Program-made: the position numbers and the translations under genes
Source of the DNA: Candidatus Binatia bacterium
GTDB lineage: Bacteria; Vulcanimicrobiota; Vulcanimicrobiia; Vulcanimicrobiales; Vulcanimicrobiaceae
Length of the DNA stretch: 64,000 nt
Direction of reading: 5' to 3'
Assembly: GCA_035544215.1 (NCBI GenBank)
Contig: DATKHY010000007.1
Span: 1,488,001-1,552,000 of the forward strand
Notes under the pieces: model-generated
The model's input: the letters and a program-made list of their open reading frames with translations, nothing else
Told to the model about the DNA's origin: nothing
The model's database searches: none
Part shown: positions 31,005-54,839 of the stretch, one piece after another
Position numbering within the stretch: position 1 is the stretch's first letter
Layout: the number at the start of each line of letters is the position of its first letter

Positions 31005-31865
31005 ATGCCGAAAACGAATCTCAACGCCGACCTCATTCACGATGTCTGCCGGTACGTCGAGGATCATAGCGACGAAGCCTTGACGCTGGCTGAGCTTGCC
31101 TCGCACGCCTCGATGAGCCGCTTTCATTTCGCCCGCACGTTCAAAGCCGTGGTGGGCGTAACGCCCAAGCAGTACCTCGCCACGGTTCGCCTGCGCAAGC
31201 TCAAGGACGGCCTAGGCAAGGCCCGATCCATCGACCGAGCCGCGCACGACGCCGGATACGGCTCGACCAGCCGCATCTACGAACGCGCCGCCTCGAGTTT
31301 GGGAATGACGCCGGCGCAGTACCGCCGGGGCGGCGAAGGCGTCTCGATCTCCTACGCGTCGTTTCCGACGCCGATCGGACTGATGATGATCGGTGCGACG
31401 GACCGCGGCATCTGCTTCGTGGGATTCGGCGATGCTCCGGATGAGTTGCTCGAACGCTTACGGGCGGAGTATCGCAACGCGCACGTCGAGCCGATGCGCG
31501 AGCCATACCACGCCGACTTCGTCGCCTGGGTGGACGCGATCTCGCGTCACCTCGCGGGAGAGATTCCGCGGCCGGAGCTTCCGCTCGACATCCACGCGAC
31601 GGCCTTTCAAATGCGCGTGTGGAAGTATCTGCAGACGATCCCGTCCGGCGACGTCGCATCATATGGAGAAGTCGCGAGCGCGATCGGATCGCCCAATGGT
31701 GCGCGCGCCGTCGCGCGAGCGTGCGCGCAAAATCCGGCCGCGGTGCTCATTCCGTGCCATCGGGTGATACGGGGTTCGGGAAATCTCGGCGGCTATCGCT
31801 GGGGAATCGCTCGCAAGCGCGGACTGATCGACAAAGAGCGCGCGGCCAAGGCCGCCAACGCGTGA
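31005..31865 (+). CDS. AraC-type HTH fused to O6-methylguanine-DNA methyltransferase (Ada-like)
   Basis: 286 residues. Residues about 8-105 are an AraC DNA-binding domain (two helix-turn-helix units, TLAELASHASMSRFHFAR and SIDRAAHDAGYGS). Residues 115-280 are a methylated-DNA cysteine methyltransferase with the acceptor Cys in PCHRVI near residue 251. Full-length Ada has in addition an N-terminal zinc/Cys-38 domain that senses methylphosphotriesters, and this is absent. It therefore repairs O6-methylguanine and may bind DNA, but cannot be switched on in the Ada manner. It overlaps the next gene (GTGA). Confidence 0.93.
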   Translation: MPKTNLNADLIHDVCRYVEDHSDEALTLAELASHASMSRFHFARTFKAVVGVTPKQYLATVRLRKLKDGLGKARSIDRAAHDAGYGSTSRIYERAASSLGMTPAQYRRGGEGVSISYASFPTPIGLMMIGATDRGICFVGFGDAPDELLERLRAEYRNAHVEPMREPYHADFVAWVDAISRHLAGEIPRPELPLDIHATAFQMRVWKYLQTIPSGDVASYGEVASAIGSPNGARAVARACAQNPAAVLIPCHRVIRGSGNLGGYRWGIARKRGLIDKERAAKAANA

Positions 31866-33220
31866 CGGCCTACGATCTCGTCGTAATCGGAACGGGAAGT
31901 TCCGGAAATGCCGTCGCCACGACTTGCGCGCGTGCCGGCAGGCGCGTTGCAATCGTCGACGAGCTTCCCTACGGCGGCACGTGCGAGCTGCGGGGCTGCG
32001 ATCCGAAGAAGGTGCTCGTCGGAGCCGCGGAGCTGATCGACTGGTGCGATCGCATGCGCGGCAGCGGTTTCTCCGGCGAGGCGCGGATCGACTGGCCCGA
32101 GCTGATGCGCTTCAAGCGCACGTTCACCGACCCGGTTCCGCAGCAGCGGGAAGAAAGCTACAGCGCACTCGGAATCGAGACGTATCACGGCCAGGCGCGC
32201 TTCGTCGATCCGGCGACGATAAGCGTTGGGGATCGACGGCTCGAGACGCGTCACGTCGTCCTGGCCACCGGCGCGCGGCCGGCGAACCTCCAGATCGCGG
32301 GCGAAGAGCACCTGATCACCAGCACCGACTTCCTTGACTTGGAACGGATGCCGCGTCGCGTCGCGTTCATCGGCGGCGGCTATATCGCGTTCGAGTTTGC
32401 GCACCTCGCGGTACGCGCAGGCGCGGCGCCCGTCATTCTGCAGCGCGGCCCGCGCGTGCTGACCGGCTTCGACCCGGGCCTGGTCGACGCGCTCGTCGAC
32501 GTCAGCGGGGCGGTCGGGATCGACGTGCGCGTCCAGTGCGAAGTGCACGCGGCCGAGAAGATCGCGGCCGGCTTCGTCGTGAGCGGTATCGCCGGCGGAG
32601 AGGAGTTTTCCCTCGAGTGCGACCTGGTCGTTCACGCGGCGGGTCGCATCCCGGATCTCGACGACCTCGATCTTGCCGCCGGCAACGTGCAGCGAACCGA
32701 CAAGGGCGTCGCGGTCAACGAGTTTTTGCAGAGCCGCAGCAACGCCGCCGTCTATGCGGTCGGCGACTGCGCCGATGGGGGTGGCCTGCCGCTCACGCCG
32801 ACCGCATCGGTGGAGGGCGAAGTCGCGGCGCGCAACCTCCTCGAGGGCAATCGGCACTCCGTCGATTTCGCGGGCCTCGTCAGCATCGTGTACACGATTC
32901 CGCCGCTCGGGTCGACCGGCCTCACGCAGGCGGCGGCCGACGAGCGGGGCCTGCGCTGCACGGTCGGCGCCGCCGACTCAACGCAATGGTACTCGTCGCG
33001 GCGGATACACGCGCGGCGTTCGGCATTTCGCGTGATCGTCGAGGACTCGACCGGACGGATCCTCGGCGCGCACGTTCTCGGTCCGCACGCCGAGGAGTTG
33101 CTCAACGTCTTCTCGCTCGCGATTCGCGCTCAGATCCCGGCTGCGACTCTGGGAGGCGCGCTCTTTGCATACCCGACGGCGTCGTCCGACATCGCCGGAA
33201 TGCTCCAAGGCTCCAAATAA
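31862..33220 (+). CDS. FAD/NAD(P) disulfide reductase-family protein
   Basis: A 452-residue flavoprotein of the glutathione/mercuric reductase class. FAD loop GTGSSGNAVA at the N-terminus, redox disulfide Cys41-Cys46 (CELRGC, a CxxxxC motif), NAD(P) loop FIGGGYIAFEFAH, and AVGDCADGG before the dimerisation domain. The usual C-terminal HPT catalytic His is replaced by YPT (about residue 437), and the protein ends soon after. It likely reduces a disulfide or quinone with altered chemistry. It is translated in overlap with the AraC/Ogt gene; the stop lies 4 bases before a CIRCE element. Confidence 0.9.
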   Translation: MTAYDLVVIGTGSSGNAVATTCARAGRRVAIVDELPYGGTCELRGCDPKKVLVGAAELIDWCDRMRGSGFSGEARIDWPELMRFKRTFTDPVPQQREESYSALGIETYHGQARFVDPATISVGDRRLETRHVVLATGARPANLQIAGEEHLITSTDFLDLERMPRRVAFIGGGYIAFEFAHLAVRAGAAPVILQRGPRVLTGFDPGLVDALVDVSGAVGIDVRVQCEVHAAEKIAAGFVVSGIAGGEEFSLECDLVVHAAGRIPDLDDLDLAAGNVQRTDKGVAVNEFLQSRSNAAVYAVGDCADGGGLPLTPTASVEGEVAARNLLEGNRHSVDFAGLVSIVYTIPPLGSTGLTQAAADERGLRCTVGAADSTQWYSSRRIHARRSAFRVIVEDSTGRILGAHVLGPHAEELLNVFSLAIRAQIPAATLGGALFAYPTASSDIAGMLQGSK

Positions 33221-33224
33221 CCGC

Positions 33225-33251
33225 TTAGCACTCACTACCTAAGAGCGCTAA
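33225..33251. promoter_or_regulatory. CIRCE (HrcA operator) upstream of mraZ
   Basis: TTAGCACTC, nine bases, then GAGCGCTAA. This matches the CIRCE consensus TTAGCACTC-N9-GAGTGCTAA at 17 of 18 positions and with the exact spacing. It lies 4 bases after the flavoprotein gene and about 50 bases upstream of the mraZ promoter. The same kind of element precedes groES in this window. Confidence 0.8.
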
Positions 33252-33299
33252 AGCGCTTCACTTTGTTGTGCCGCCCCTCCGAAGCGGGCCTTCGAAATC

Positions 33300-33328
33300 T
33301 TGCCTTAGCCCTGCCTGGGGCGTATAGT
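33300..33328 (+). promoter_or_regulatory. mraZ: Putative sigma-70 promoter of the mraZ/dcw cluster
   Basis: TTGCCT (33300-33305), a 17-base spacer and TATAGT (33323-33328), close to the vegetative consensus. Transcription would start near 33335, inside the three 10-base MraZ-type repeats. Confidence 0.65.
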
Positions 33329-33355
33329 GGTGGGAAGTAGTGTGTAGTGGTGCCT
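33326..33355 (+). promoter_or_regulatory. Putative MraZ operator: three 10-base direct repeats
   Basis: Three units starting AGTGGTGGGA, AGTAGTGTGT and AGTGGTGCCT follow each other with an exact 10-base period. MraZ autorepression sites in other bacteria are tandem GTGG/TGGG boxes with 10-base spacing in front of mraZ. Here they overlap the -10 element and transcription start. Confidence 0.65.
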
Positions 33356-33368
33356 TACGGAGGGGTTT

Positions 33369-33809
33369 GTGCACGCGGAGCTCCCGCGTTTCGCGGGTTC
33401 GGAGCAACATGCTCTCGACCACAAGGGGCGTCTCATCGTACCCGCCCGCTTTCGCGAGCGGCTCGGTCCGCAATTTGTCCTAACCATCGCCCCTCCGGAT
33501 CCATGTCTCGCGCTCTATCCCAGCGCCACGTGGGTCGAGGCCTGCGGCCGCCTCGAGTCGGTATCCCAAAAAGACGAAGCCTATCGGCGCTTTCTCCGCT
33601 ACCTGTTCGCCCATACGGAAGAGGTCGCGTGCGACGCGCAGGGCCGCGTCGTCGTGCCGTCGCTGCTGCGCTCGTACGCGGGCATCGAACGCTTCGTCGT
33701 TTCCGTGGGCCTGCTGACCCGCATCGAAATTTGGGCGAAGGAGCGCTACGCCTTCGAGTCGCCGCCGGAGGGCGACGTTCCGCGCTTCATGGCCGAGTTC
33801 GGGCTGTAG
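33369..33809 (+). CDS. mraZ: Transcriptional regulator MraZ
   Basis: A 146-residue protein of two AbrB-like halves, each with the DxxGRxxxP signature (HKGRLIVPARFRE and AQGRVVVPSLLR). MraZ is an octameric ring that binds its own promoter and represses the dcw cluster. The GTG at 33369 follows a GGAGGGG ribosome site. It heads the cell-division and wall cluster. Confidence 0.96.
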   Translation: MHAELPRFAGSEQHALDHKGRLIVPARFRERLGPQFVLTIAPPDPCLALYPSATWVEACGRLESVSQKDEAYRRFLRYLFAHTEEVACDAQGRVVVPSLLRSYAGIERFVVSVGLLTRIEIWAKERYAFESPPEGDVPRFMAEFGL

Positions 33810-33841: not shown

Positions 33842-34705
33842 ATGCACGTCTCGGTGCTTGTGGAGCCGGCCCTGGAGTACTTGGCGATCCGGCCGGATGG
33901 GATCTACGTCGATGCGACGTTCGGAGCGGGCGGTCATTCCCGTGCGATCCTGCAGCGCCTTCGAGACGGCCGTTTGATTGCACTCGATGCCGATCCGAGT
34001 GCTGCTGCGGCGGAGATCGCCGATCCGCGCTTCACCTTCTTTCACGACAATTTCCGGAACCTCGACCGCGTCCTCGATCGAGCCGGCATCGGCTCGATCG
34101 ACGGCGTTCTCTTCGACTTGGGAGTTTCGTCGATGCAACTTGACGATCCGGAGCGTGGATTTTCGCTCGCGAAATCCTCGCCGCTGGACATGCGCATGGA
34201 TCCGGCCGTCGGGCCGAGCGCATACGAGATTCTGGCGACCGCCAGCGAGGGCGAGCTCGCCGATATCTTCTTCGCGTACGGCGAGGAGCGCTCGGCGCGG
34301 CGAATTGCGCGCGCGATCGTGGCGCGCCGCGCGCTCGGCGAGCTGCCCAACACCGCGGCCGAGTTCGCCGGCCTCGTGGCGGGCGTCGTGCGCCGGCCGG
34401 GCCGGCGCGAGCGGATTCATCCCGCGACGCGCGTCTTTCAGGCTCTGCGCATCGCGGCCAACGACGAGCTCGACGCTCTGCGCGATGGCTTGCGAAGCGC
34501 GATCGGCCGGCTGCGCTCCGCGGGACGCGTCGTCGCGATCAGCTTTCATTCGCTCGAAGACCGCATCGTCAAGCGGACGTACCGCGACGACGCGCGGCTC
34601 GACGTGCTCACGAAGCGCCCGATCCTCCCGTCCGAGGAAGAGATCGCGCAGAACCGTCGCGCCCGCAGCGCCAAGCTGCGCGCCGCGCAGCGAAAGGCGA
34701 GCTGA
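33842..34705 (+). CDS. rsmH: 16S rRNA (cytosine1402-N4)-methyltransferase
   Basis: A 287-residue SAM-dependent methyltransferase (MraW) acting on the decoding centre of 16S rRNA. SAM motif VDATFGAGGHSRAIL, then FDLGVSSMQLDDPERGFS and the C-terminal VAISFHSLEDRIVKR, all family hallmarks. The ATG at 33842 gives the usual HVSVL start. It follows mraZ after 32 bases and abuts ftsL. Confidence 0.97.
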   Translation: MHVSVLVEPALEYLAIRPDGIYVDATFGAGGHSRAILQRLRDGRLIALDADPSAAAAEIADPRFTFFHDNFRNLDRVLDRAGIGSIDGVLFDLGVSSMQLDDPERGFSLAKSSPLDMRMDPAVGPSAYEILATASEGELADIFFAYGEERSARRIARAIVARRALGELPNTAAEFAGLVAGVVRRPGRRERIHPATRVFQALRIAANDELDALRDGLRSAIGRLRSAGRVVAISFHSLEDRIVKRTYRDDARLDVLTKRPILPSEEEIAQNRRARSAKLRAAQRKAS

Positions 34706-35171: not shown

Positions 35172-36914
35172 ATGCATCAGCGGACCTTTGCGCGCGTCGC
35201 CCCGATGCGCGCGAGGCTGTTCTTTTACGCGTGCATGGTCGTCGCGCTCTTTCTCGCGTGGCGCCTGAGCGTCGTGCAAGGGCTCGATGGACGGCTCTAC
35301 GCCAAGGAGGCACTGGCGCAGCGCTCCGACACGGTCGAGGTGTTCGCGCGCCGTGGCAGCATCTTAGACCGCAACGGCAACGTCCTCGTGCGCTCCATGC
35401 CGTCCGAGAGCGTCTACGCCATACCGAGAGAGATCCTCGATCCCGATGCAACCGCCGCGAAGCTCCGAACGATCTTCGGCAAACTCGATCCCGGCGTGGT
35501 CGCGGCGCTGCACGATCGGCATCTTTGGTTCGTCTGGATCGCGCGCAAAGTATCGCACGATCTCGCGCAGCGTGTGCGCGCATTGGACGGCCCGGGCATC
35601 GCGCTCAAGGAGGAAGACACGGGGTTGCGGGTCGACACCAGCGGATCGCTGGCCTCGACGGTGCTCGGGTTCGTCGGTACCGACGAAAACGGCTTGGACG
35701 GCGTCGAATATGCCTACGACGACGTACTGCGCGGCCGGTCGGGGCGAGTCACGCTCGAAGCCGATCAGTTCGGCCGTCCGATTCCGTTCGGGCTCGAGCG
35801 CGTCGTAACGCCCGCGCAGGCCGGCTCCACCGTGCAGCTGACGCTCGATCCGTACCTCCAATTCGTTGCGGAGCACGCGCTTCGCCAACAGGTGCGCGCG
35901 TTTCACGCGCTCGACGGTACCGCGATCGTGATGGATCCGTGGACCGGGGAGATCCTCGCGTTGGCTAATCTCCCGGACTTCGATCCGAACCGTTTCTGGA
36001 AATTCGACGACGACGCGCGCCGCGACCGAGGGGTGATGGATGCGTACGAGCCGGGCTCGACGTACAAGCTCATCACGGCGGCGGCGGCGCTGGATTCGCG
36101 CAAGGTCACCTGGACCAGCCGCTTCCCCGCACGCGACACGATCGAAGTAGGCGGGCGCACGATTCACAACGCGGAAGATGGCTTCATGGCCGGCACCGGC
36201 GGAAGCGAAACGCTGGAACAGATCGTCGAGTTTTCGCACAACGTGGGTGCGGCGGAAGTCGGCCTCTCGATAGGGGCGAAGACATTTTACGCGATGGAAC
36301 GCAAGGCCGGCTTCGGAGACCCAAGCGGCGTCGGTCTGCCGGGCGAGAATCCCGGCATCGTCCCGCCTCCCTCCCAGTGGAGCGGTTCATCGCTCGCGAC
36401 GATGTCGTTCGGTCAAGGTGTCTCCGTGACGCCGCTAGCGATGGCACGCTACTACTGCGCGGTCGCGAACGGCGGGAATCTCATGGAACCGCACATCGTG
36501 CGCGCCGTCTACGACCAGCAAGGCAAGCTCGTGCGGCGCGTCACGCCGAGGATCGTGCGGCGCGTCTTCTCGCAGCACACCGCGGAAGAGCTGCGGACGA
36601 TCCTGCGAGCGGTCGTCTTGCATGGTACCGGCGACCCGACGGCACAGATTCCCGGATATGCGACGGCGGGCAAGACCGGAACGGCGGAGATGGTGGTGGA
36701 CGGCGAGTACCGAGGCGGATACTATGCGGCGTCGTTCATCGGCATGGTCCCCTATCCGCGACCACGCTACGTCGTCTACGTGAAAGTGGAGCGTCCGATC
36801 GGCTCGTACTACGGCAGCGTCGTCGCGGCCCCGGCCTTCGCCGCCATCTCGCGCGCTGCGATGTTGCATGCGGGAGTCCTGCCGAGCGCAGCCGTTGCGC
36901 GAAATGGGCGGTGA
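35172..36914 (+). CDS. ftsI: Penicillin-binding protein 2/FtsI (septal transpeptidase)
   Basis: A 580-residue class B PBP. One N-terminal membrane helix (FFYACMVVALFLAWRL), a PBP dimer domain (RGSILDRNGNVL), then the transpeptidase with active-site SxxK (STYK, Ser near residue 296), SxN (SHN) and KTGT near residue 501. There is no PASTA domain. It cross-links septal murein with FtsW. The stop lies 11 bases inside murE. Confidence 0.96.
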   Translation: MHQRTFARVAPMRARLFFYACMVVALFLAWRLSVVQGLDGRLYAKEALAQRSDTVEVFARRGSILDRNGNVLVRSMPSESVYAIPREILDPDATAAKLRTIFGKLDPGVVAALHDRHLWFVWIARKVSHDLAQRVRALDGPGIALKEEDTGLRVDTSGSLASTVLGFVGTDENGLDGVEYAYDDVLRGRSGRVTLEADQFGRPIPFGLERVVTPAQAGSTVQLTLDPYLQFVAEHALRQQVRAFHALDGTAIVMDPWTGEILALANLPDFDPNRFWKFDDDARRDRGVMDAYEPGSTYKLITAAAALDSRKVTWTSRFPARDTIEVGGRTIHNAEDGFMAGTGGSETLEQIVEFSHNVGAAEVGLSIGAKTFYAMERKAGFGDPSGVGLPGENPGIVPPPSQWSGSSLATMSFGQGVSVTPLAMARYYCAVANGGNLMEPHIVRAVYDQQGKLVRRVTPRIVRRVFSQHTAEELRTILRAVVLHGTGDPTAQIPGYATAGKTGTAEMVVDGEYRGGYYAASFIGMVPYPRPRYVVYVKVERPIGSYYGSVVAAPAFAAISRAAMLHAGVLPSAAVARNGR

Positions 36915-38370
36915 ACGCGCGGTCGCACTGGCGACGCTGCTCAAGCGCCTGCCGGACGCGCAGATAACCGGCGCTCGCGAAATCGACGTTACGAGCATCG
37001 AGACCGCGTCGCAGGCGGTCCGGCCGGGAGCGCTCTTCGTGGCGCTGCGCGGGACGCATACGGACGGCCATAGCTACGTGCCCGAGGCGATCGCCGGCGG
37101 CGCGCGCGCGGTCGTGGTCGAGGAGTCTCCGGAAACGATTGCCTCCGGCGCGACGGTCGTGCGCGTCGCGGACACGCGCCGCGCGCTCTCGGGGTTGTCG
37201 GCGGCCTTCTTCGGCGATCCGTCGCTTTCGCTCGACGTCGTCGGCGTCACGGGCACCAATGGTAAAACGACGACGTCGCGGATGATCGGCGCTATCCTCA
37301 ACGAGGCCGGCATTCCGTGCGGAGTGATCGGCACGGTCGGCGCCGAGTTCGCTAGCCACACGTGGCGACTCGCGAACACGACTCCGCTGCCGCCCGAGCT
37401 TCACGGGTTGCTCGCCCACATGCGCGACGGTGGCGCCCGAGCGATCGCGATGGAGGTGAGCTCGCACGCGCTCGCGCTGGATCGCGTGGACGACGTCCGT
37501 TTTCGCATCGCGGTGCTGACCAACCTGACTCGCGATCATTTGGACTTTCATCAGACACCGGAGGCGTACGCGGCCGCGAAGCGGCGCCTCTTCGACCTCG
37601 CGCCGATAAGCGTTCTCAACGTCGACGATCAGTACGGCGCGCGGTGGGCGGCCGAGGTCGCGCGCGAGGGGCGCGACGTCATCACGTATGGCTCCAGTCC
37701 CGTAGCCACGCTGACGGCCGAAGAGGTCGCCGTTGCGGCCGACGGAAGCCGCTTCACCGTCGACGGCAGACTCTACGAGTTGCGCCTGCCCGGCCGGTTC
37801 AACGTGTGGAACGCGCTGGCTGCAATTGCCGTAGCAGAGCAGCTGGGCGTCGACAGCGCGACAAGCGCACGCGCGCTCGGATCGCTCGAGCGCGTGGCGG
37901 GACGCATGGAACATCTGCGCGGCGACGGCATCGACGTCATCGTCGACTACGCGCACACGCCCGACGCACTCGAGCACGCCCTGGGATCGCTGCGCGAGAC
38001 GGCGCGAGGCCGGCTCGCCGTCGTCTTCGGATGCGGTGGCGACCGCGACAAGGGCAAACGCCCCGAGATGGGAGCGGTGGCTGCGCGCATGGCCGATCGC
38101 CTGTACGTAACGAACGACAATCCTCGCAGCGAGGATCCGCGCGCGATCGCCGGCGCGATCGTGGCGGGGATCGGGAAGCGCGAGCACGTCGTGGAGCTGG
38201 ATCGGCGGCGCGCGATCGAATGCGCCATCGGTGAGGCGCGATCCGGCGACGTCGTCTTGATCGCCGGCAAGGGGCACGAGACGTATCAAATTATCGGCGA
38301 TCGCGTATTGCCGTTCGACGACGCGGAGGTGGCGCGCGCGGCGCTCTCGACACGTGGAGCGCTGCGATGA
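36904..38370 (+). CDS. murE: UDP-MurNAc-L-Ala-D-Glu:meso-DAP ligase
   Basis: A 488-residue Mur ligase. ATP loop GVTGTNGKTTTS near residue 115, and carbamate-region SSHALALDRV. The C-terminal TNDNPRSEDP contains DNPR, the motif that distinguishes diaminopimelate-adding enzymes from lysine-adding ones. The ATG at 36904 overlaps ftsI by 11 bases and gives the normal length; the upstream ATG at 36868 would overlap further. Its stop overlaps the murF start. Confidence 0.96.
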   Translation: MGGERAVALATLLKRLPDAQITGAREIDVTSIETASQAVRPGALFVALRGTHTDGHSYVPEAIAGGARAVVVEESPETIASGATVVRVADTRRALSGLSAAFFGDPSLSLDVVGVTGTNGKTTTSRMIGAILNEAGIPCGVIGTVGAEFASHTWRLANTTPLPPELHGLLAHMRDGGARAIAMEVSSHALALDRVDDVRFRIAVLTNLTRDHLDFHQTPEAYAAAKRRLFDLAPISVLNVDDQYGARWAAEVAREGRDVITYGSSPVATLTAEEVAVAADGSRFTVDGRLYELRLPGRFNVWNALAAIAVAEQLGVDSATSARALGSLERVAGRMEHLRGDGIDVIVDYAHTPDALEHALGSLRETARGRLAVVFGCGGDRDKGKRPEMGAVAARMADRLYVTNDNPRSEDPRAIAGAIVAGIGKREHVVELDRRRAIECAIGEARSGDVVLIAGKGHETYQIIGDRVLPFDDAEVARAALSTRGALR

Positions 38371-39752
38371 ATATCCCACTCGACGCGGCATTGCGCGCCA
38401 CCGGGGCGACGCTGAGGGACGCCGAATCGGCGCCGGCCTCGCTGCGCGTCAGCACCGACACCCGAACGATCGAACCCGGCGACACCTTCGTCGCGCTGCG
38501 CGGGGAGCGTTACGACGGGCACGACTACGCCGCGGAGGCGGCGCGGCGCGGCGCGGCGATGCTAGTGCTCGAGCGGCCGGACCCCCAGACGCCAGGAACG
38601 CCGGCGATGCTCGTTCGAGACGGTTTGCAGGCCTACATGGCCCTGGCCGGCCGCGCCCGCGAGCTCTTCCACGGACGGGTGGTTGCGATCACCGGAAGCA
38701 CCGGCAAGACGACCACGAAGGAGTTTCTCGCGCAGCTGCTCGCGGTGCGCTACGGAGATCGCGTGCTCGCGGCTCCGGGTAACGAGAACAACGAGATCGG
38801 GGTCAGCAAGCTCCTGCTGCGCGCGGACAATGCGGAACACGACGTACTCGTGGTCGAGATGGGAGCGCGAAAGTACGGCGACGTGGCCGAGCTCGTTCAG
38901 ATCGCGCGGCCCGACATCGGCATCCTCACCAACGTCGGCGAGGCGCACTTGGAGATCATCGGATCGCGCGAGCGGCTGGCCGACACGAAGTGGGCCCTGT
39001 TCGGCGCCGGCGCTCGCGCGGTGCTCAACGCCGGCGACGAAGTGTCGCGCGCGCGCGCTGCGGCGCTGCGTGACGAGGCGCATTGGTTCGTCGCGGTGCC
39101 CCAAGCCGGCGGCCTGGATCGCTACGAGCGGCTGCAGACCCTGACCGCACTGGTCGGAGATCACCATTTGCTGACGCGCGCCGAGGGGGGCGCGCATTCC
39201 GTCGAAGTTCACCTGCACGTGGCCGGCGAATACAACCGCGCCAACGCGGCGGGCGCGGCCGCCGGCGCTCTGGAGCTGGGCGTTCGGCTCGACGATATCG
39301 CGCCGCGCCTTGCCGATCTGCAGCCTCCGCCGGGACGCTACGACAGCATCGTGATCGGCGGCGGAATCCGGCTGATCTACGACGCGTACAACGCCAATGC
39401 AAGCAGCATGATCGCGGCGCTCGACGCCTTCGGCGCGGAGGCCGCAACGCGCCGCATCGCCGTCCTCGCGTCGATGGCGGAGCTGGGCGACGAATCGCGC
39501 GTCTTGCACGAGCGCGTCGGTGCGCACGCCGCCGGAAGAGTGGACGTGCTCGTCGTCCAGGGCGAGTTCGCGGCGGAGCTCGCGCGCGGTGCGGAGCGCG
39601 CGGGACTCGGTCCAGCACAGATCGTTTGCGTCGGCGCCAATGCCCAGGCTGCGCGCTGGCTGCGCGAACACGCGCGCCGCGGCGACGTCGTGTTGCTGAA
39701 GGGCTCGCGCAAATACAAGCTCGAGGAAATCGTAGAGGAGCTGCAAGCGTGA
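38367..39752 (+). CDS. murF: UDP-MurNAc-tripeptide:D-Ala-D-Ala ligase
   Basis: A 461-residue Mur ligase adding D-Ala-D-Ala. ATP loop ITGSTGKTTTKEF near residue 111, GNENNEIGVSKLLL, VVEMGARKYGDVAEL, and C-terminal IYDAYNANASSM. ATGA overlap with murE and GTGA overlap with the following CofE-like gene. Confidence 0.96.
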   Translation: MNIPLDAALRATGATLRDAESAPASLRVSTDTRTIEPGDTFVALRGERYDGHDYAAEAARRGAAMLVLERPDPQTPGTPAMLVRDGLQAYMALAGRARELFHGRVVAITGSTGKTTTKEFLAQLLAVRYGDRVLAAPGNENNEIGVSKLLLRADNAEHDVLVVEMGARKYGDVAELVQIARPDIGILTNVGEAHLEIIGSRERLADTKWALFGAGARAVLNAGDEVSRARAAALRDEAHWFVAVPQAGGLDRYERLQTLTALVGDHHLLTRAEGGAHSVEVHLHVAGEYNRANAAGAAAGALELGVRLDDIAPRLADLQPPPGRYDSIVIGGGIRLIYDAYNANASSMIAALDAFGAEAATRRIAVLASMAELGDESRVLHERVGAHAAGRVDVLVVQGEFAAELARGAERAGLGPAQIVCVGANAQAARWLREHARRGDVVLLKGSRKYKLEEIVEELQA

Positions 39753-54812: not shown

Positions 54813-54839
54813 CTAGCGCTCTCGCGCCGAGAGTGCTAA
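54813..54839. promoter_or_regulatory. CIRCE (HrcA operator) of groESL
   Basis: CTAGCGCTC, nine bases, GAGTGCTAA: 16 of 18 consensus positions with exact spacing, placed right after the promoter as in most bacteria with HrcA. HrcA dimers bind here and release on heat shock. hrcA itself is not in the window. Confidence 0.9.

Follow-up and report, generated by a model that had tools for sequence, protein, structure and literature searches.

Features at the mraZ locus

The window, that is, the whole stretch of 64,000 nucleotides that was analysed, belongs to a soil bacterium of the Candidatus Eremiobacterota (Vulcanimicrobiota). Its genome (G000) has a size of 3.23 Mb in 9 contigs and is 97% complete, and the nearest named relatives are MAGs of Candidatus Eremiobacterota / Vulcanimicrobiota, many of them out of palsa samples. 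The features considered here are listed in Table 1. The division and cell wall (dcw) cluster runs in the order mraZ, mraW, a small unnamed ORF, a penicillin-binding transpeptidase and Mur ligases. It is preceded by a flavoprotein gene, and a CIRCE element, the operator of HrcA, begins 4 bp after the stop codon of this gene. In the relative G005, an hsp20 gene sits between the two.

The -10 hexamer of the mraZ promoter, TATAGT, was conserved in the genus at about -46. When positions 33050-33450 were scanned, no other sigma70-like promoter was found, and a second promoter that would lie over the CIRCE and serve mraZ was thus rejected. Three TRGTG repeats extend over the -10 and the presumed start of the mraZ transcript and were conserved in the 13 genus members; by their resemblance to described boxes, they are probably MraZ boxes.

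Table 1. Coordinates of the features considered in the window.
Feature	Position	Strand	Remarks
Pyridine nucleotide-disulphide oxidoreductase (flavoprotein)	31862..33220	+	Pfam PF07992, PF02852; start inferred from Pfam match
CIRCE (HrcA operator)	33225..33251	.	1 mismatch in 18; probable remnant of a lost divergent hsp20
Weak terminator-like stem	33243..33258	+	6 pairs, uses the CIRCE right arm; within chance (shuffles mean 0.5)
mraZ core promoter	33300..33328	+	TTGCCT-17-TATAGT; 48 bp downstream of CIRCE
Putative MraZ boxes	33328..33352	+	3 direct repeats TRGTG (TGGTG-N5-TAGTG-N5-TGGTG), 10-bp period
mraZ	33369..33809	+	first dcw gene; Pfam PF02381, E 4.8e-27
mraW (rsmH)	33842..34705	+	Pfam PF01795, E 4.9e-96
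Penicillin-binding transpeptidase (ftsI-like) and two Mur ligases	35172..39752	+	dcw cluster continues
groESL CIRCE	54813..54839	.	2 mismatches; positive control for placement

The CIRCE element and HrcA in the genome

The element before mraZ reads TTAGCACTCACTACCTAAGAGCGCTAA. It fits the CIRCE consensus TTAGCACTC-N9-GAGTGCTAA at 17 of 18 arm positions, and its spacer is exactly 9 bases long. The sole deviation is GAGCGC instead of GAGTGC. Since the groESL CIRCE carries the same change in one arm in nearly all genus members, these cells probably have an HrcA that tolerates it, and judging from the sequence the protein probably still binds this predicted operator.

An hrcA gene is present in the genome (PF01628, E 1.6e-52), and a CIRCE of its own, with 2 mismatches, precedes it. 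Across the whole 3.23 Mb, four CIRCE sites with at most 3 mismatches were detected, which lie before mraZ, groESL, hrcA and an FmdB-type zinc-ribbon gene, and the reversed control pattern gave no site genome-wide. The groESL site is located directly 3' of the -10 of the groESL promoter. Shuffling the window 100 times with its dinucleotides preserved yielded no CIRCE at up to 3 mismatches. A chance match before mraZ has a negligible probability and was rejected on the zero count in shuffles, on the genome-wide rarity of the pattern, with the other three sites standing just before genes, and on its recurrence in 8 of 13 genus members.

The earlier note on this DNA had described the near-perfect element with exact spacing before mraZ, a second CIRCE at groESL, a promoter about 50 bases away from the first, and the use of HrcA by the cell. 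The first three statements held, an hrcA gene with its own CIRCE is present in agreement with the fourth, and the genome-wide search that it had proposed returned the mraZ site as one of only four.

The FmdB-type gene (PF09723; L002 1198-1527, G000:C3:531164) is directly preceded by its CIRCE, and the spacer core of this site, GGTCAATGA, was conserved across most of the genus. From this placement, the gene is a predicted HrcA target.

Occurrence of CIRCE upstream of mraZ among relatives

The upstream regions of mraZ were compared in 13 members of the genus whose mraZ could be read and at 40 other related mraZ loci. CIRCE was present in eight of the 13 genus members, with no mismatch in G005, 1 in G000, G007, G008 and G011, 2 in G009 and G012, and 3 in G002. 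The other five (G001, G003, G010, G014 and G016) have mraZ without CIRCE. Among the 40 loci outside the genus, none carried the element, and the view that CIRCE is ancestral to mraZ in the family was rejected on this count. The conservation before mraZ that the earlier note had proposed to check was therefore found within the genus and not beyond it.

In the eight carriers, CIRCE and the mraZ -35 are 48, 50, 25, 5, 19, 82, 26 and 24 bp apart, and no constant helical spacing or phase to the promoter was seen across them. A CIRCE that controls a promoter is expected to overlap or directly follow it; the element in the window lies 48 bp upstream of the -35, and those of the relatives 5-82 bp upstream. 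Such variable spacing is unlike an operator of the mraZ promoter.

hsp20 as the probable original owner of the operator

In three of the eight CIRCE carriers (G005, G009 and G011), an intact hsp20 gene (PF00011) is divergent from mraZ, with CIRCE between the two genes. Fewer than 65 bp separate the element from the start of hsp20, so that it occupies the usual position of an hsp20 operator. The Hsp20 proteins of G009 and G005 share 76% and 67% identity with that of G011. By our own reading of the sequences, the G011 hsp20 promoter (TTGACA-16-TAAAAT) begins within the CIRCE spacer, and the hsp20 gene at locus L063 has the promoter pair TTGACA-17-TATAAT. In G008, a frameshifted and truncated hsp20 adjoins the element, and in G000, G012, G002 and G007 CIRCE has been kept at mraZ with no hsp20 there.

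The element also accompanies hsp20 away from mraZ. In G001, CIRCE occurs with hsp20 (L139) beside transglycosylase and LptF-like genes, as we named them from their translations, which precede mraZ in other relatives; mraZ of G001 lies on another contig with neither CIRCE nor hsp20. Further hsp20 genes away from mraZ have CIRCE at L063 (2 mismatches), L154 (3 mismatches) and, more weakly, L150 and L151, with TTGACA in the spacer. Across relatives, the site lies with hsp20 in G001, L063 and L154, and has remained at mraZ after hsp20 loss in G000, G012, G002 and G007.

Trees were built on MraZ+MraW and on MraZ+MraW+HrcA. They grouped G000 with G005 (100%) and G012 with G002 (100%), and joined this pair with G011 (92-99%). 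Among the genomes without hsp20 at mraZ, G012 and G002 are a sister pair, and they presumably reflect one loss since they share the flavoprotein-CIRCE junction. The groupings indicate that hsp20 was lost independently at least twice, or three times counting G007.

Because a divergent hsp20 stands beside CIRCE in some relatives and is lost in others, and because the CIRCE of G001 stays with hsp20, we read the element before mraZ as the orphaned operator of a divergent hsp20. We give this reading a probability of about 0.74, with a deletion history that is drawn from few genomes, several of them fragmented.

The sole other hsp20 of G000, at C7:1554032 and about 2 kb past the window, belongs to a different type, and no CIRCE was found for it at up to 6 mismatches. 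A second hsp20 type (L143, L146, L153 and L159), located about 10 kb after groESL in several genomes, showed CIRCE-like sites upstream with 1-3 mismatches in several relatives; it was not found in G000.

LexA-type boxes upstream of mraZ

A different repressor site was detected before mraZ in many relatives. In 5 of the 13 genus members (G003, G010, G014, G016 and G008; loci L013, L014, L016, L017 and L018) and at 15 of the 40 other loci (L021, L024, L026, L028, L032, L051, L052, L054, L055 and L059 among them), the box CGAACRNRYGTTCG, which is the LexA box of the Gram-positive type, was found with at most 1 mismatch no more than 250 bp upstream of mraZ, mostly at 84-144 bp. Shuffles gave an expectation of 0.02-0.03 loci. 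A near-identical box (CGAACGTATGTTTG in G000) also lies upstream of most lexA genes that could be read in these genomes, that of G000 included, and this resemblance supports LexA as the protein that recognizes the boxes at mraZ. The mraZ upstream region of the window has no LexA box, and G008 carries CIRCE and a LexA box together.

At L082, a perfect LexA-type box, CGAACATATGTTCG, stands 17 bp before an ORF (806-1514) that looks ImuA/RecA-like by eye, with no Pfam match. This ORF is likely an SOS gene.

Retention of the site and alternative explanations

CIRCE with at most 3 mismatches was kept in every lineage seen in which the adjacent hsp20 is lost or broken (G000, G012/G002, G007 and G008). 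Between G012 and G002, the arms of the orphan site were identical at 17 of 18 positions, compared to 161 of 247 fourfold sites (65%) and 22 of 33 positions of the spacer and right flank. The conservation of the arms gave P values of 0.007 (binomial) and 0.024 (Fisher), which come from small numbers and from one pair picked after looking. Arm identity above that of neutral sites in this pair suggests that something still maintains the site, and this counts against a reading of it as purely an orphan.

One way to account for this is exaptation: CIRCE would have been kept after the hsp20 loss since bound HrcA regulates mraZ and the dcw cluster, either by repression of an upstream promoter that escaped detection or by action over a distance, and division and wall synthesis would in this way respond to folding stress. 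We consider this possible but unlikely. Survival of the site in all four lineages with a lost or broken hsp20 speaks for it, as does the arm identity of the G012/G002 pair, compared with about 65-67% at its neutral and flanking positions; the LexA-type box at about the same place in relatives indicates that repressor sites there are not unusual for mraZ. However, the only sigma70-like promoter found is 48 bp from CIRCE, the spacing of 5-82 bp keeps no phase, and five genus members do without the element. For the window lineage itself, one change in 18 positions would be no rare outcome of a recent deletion. A more specific proposal, for which we hold little expectation, is that the leftover hsp20 operator was recruited to put dcw under HrcA in lineages that had lost the LexA (SOS) box seen at this place in relatives. 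This would be a swap of stress signals, with G008 and its two sites as the intermediate.

It is improbable that one ancestral HrcA site served both hsp20 and mraZ, so that the window would retain the mraZ half. The divergent pairs with a single site in G005, G009 and G011 would suit such an origin, but CIRCE lies near the hsp20 start and not over the mraZ promoter, and it is found with hsp20 alone in G001.

It appears quite improbable that the site was retained as an RNA element, with the whole CIRCE stem, or the right arm together with the bases after it, serving the flavoprotein gene as terminator or 3' end. The window has a terminator-like stem, and G012 has a strong one with a T-rich tail that uses the right arm. 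However, the stem in the window is within chance expectation and has a poor T tail, and G002 has no such terminator. Moreover, G000, G012, G002 and G008 all have the left arm TTAGCACTC without a mismatch, which is more than a terminator requires. A terminator as the reason for the element was rejected, being plausible in G012 only.

Proposed history of the locus and its meaning

Under the preferred reading of an orphaned hsp20 operator, the ancestral order in the genus would have been LptF/G <- transglycosylase <- hsp20 <- CIRCE, followed by mraZ ->. In the window lineage, the flavoprotein gene would have come in on the hsp20 side, and hsp20 would have been deleted between this gene and CIRCE. 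Such a deletion would leave the element where it now stands, only 4 bp from the stop codon of the flavoprotein gene and 48 bp from the -35 of mraZ, and HrcA would very likely still bind it. The most plausible residual action would be a roadblock by HrcA to read-through from the flavoprotein gene.

HrcA is a repressor that acts at promoters. Because the site lies off the mraZ promoter, any effect of HrcA on mraZ and the dcw cluster is probably small, and HrcA control of the cluster is possible. The earlier note had proposed such control, and a weaker version of its proposal survives: the CIRCE is real and recurrent, hrcA is present, and the site was retained after hsp20 loss. Against the stronger version, the element appears to belong to a divergent hsp20, mraZ of G001 has none, and the spacing varies. 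Its two suggested routes gained little support: the scan of 33050-33450 revealed no second sigma70-like promoter, and the terminator-like stem after the flavoprotein gene did not exceed chance.

The case illustrates that an operator may persist when its gene is gone and come to stand before an essential cluster. It is also a warning that a perfect-looking operator need not regulate the next gene. Should HrcA act at the orphan site, the division cluster would be rewired to a signal of protein-folding stress. With LexA-type boxes before mraZ in many relatives, it is a testable question whether stress controls dcw in this phylum.

Comparison with known systems

The putative MraZ boxes of the window resemble those of known mraZ promoters in being direct repeats with a 10-bp period at the promoter. 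Their form is TRGTG, unlike the TGGGN of the E. coli MraZ boxes, and they are separate from CIRCE and downstream of it.

In the literature covered, where several of the papers that mention CIRCE, mraZ and HrcA are on Mollicutes and subscription journals are few, the passages of PMC5138195 that were consulted report no CIRCE at mraZ. The E. coli dcw region has described LexA boxes (PMC3265435), which are similar to the present case as sites of a stress repressor in the dcw cluster or at its head. They differ in the repressor and in the stress, and the mraZ of the window is without a LexA box, whereas relatives have one.

Compared to the CIRCE/HrcA systems of groESL, dnaK and hsp20, the site in the window is alike in its sequence, in its 9-base spacer and in the presence of an hrcA with its own CIRCE in the genome. 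It is unlike them in standing without a heat-shock gene and in lying 48 bp upstream of the mraZ promoter rather than over a promoter.
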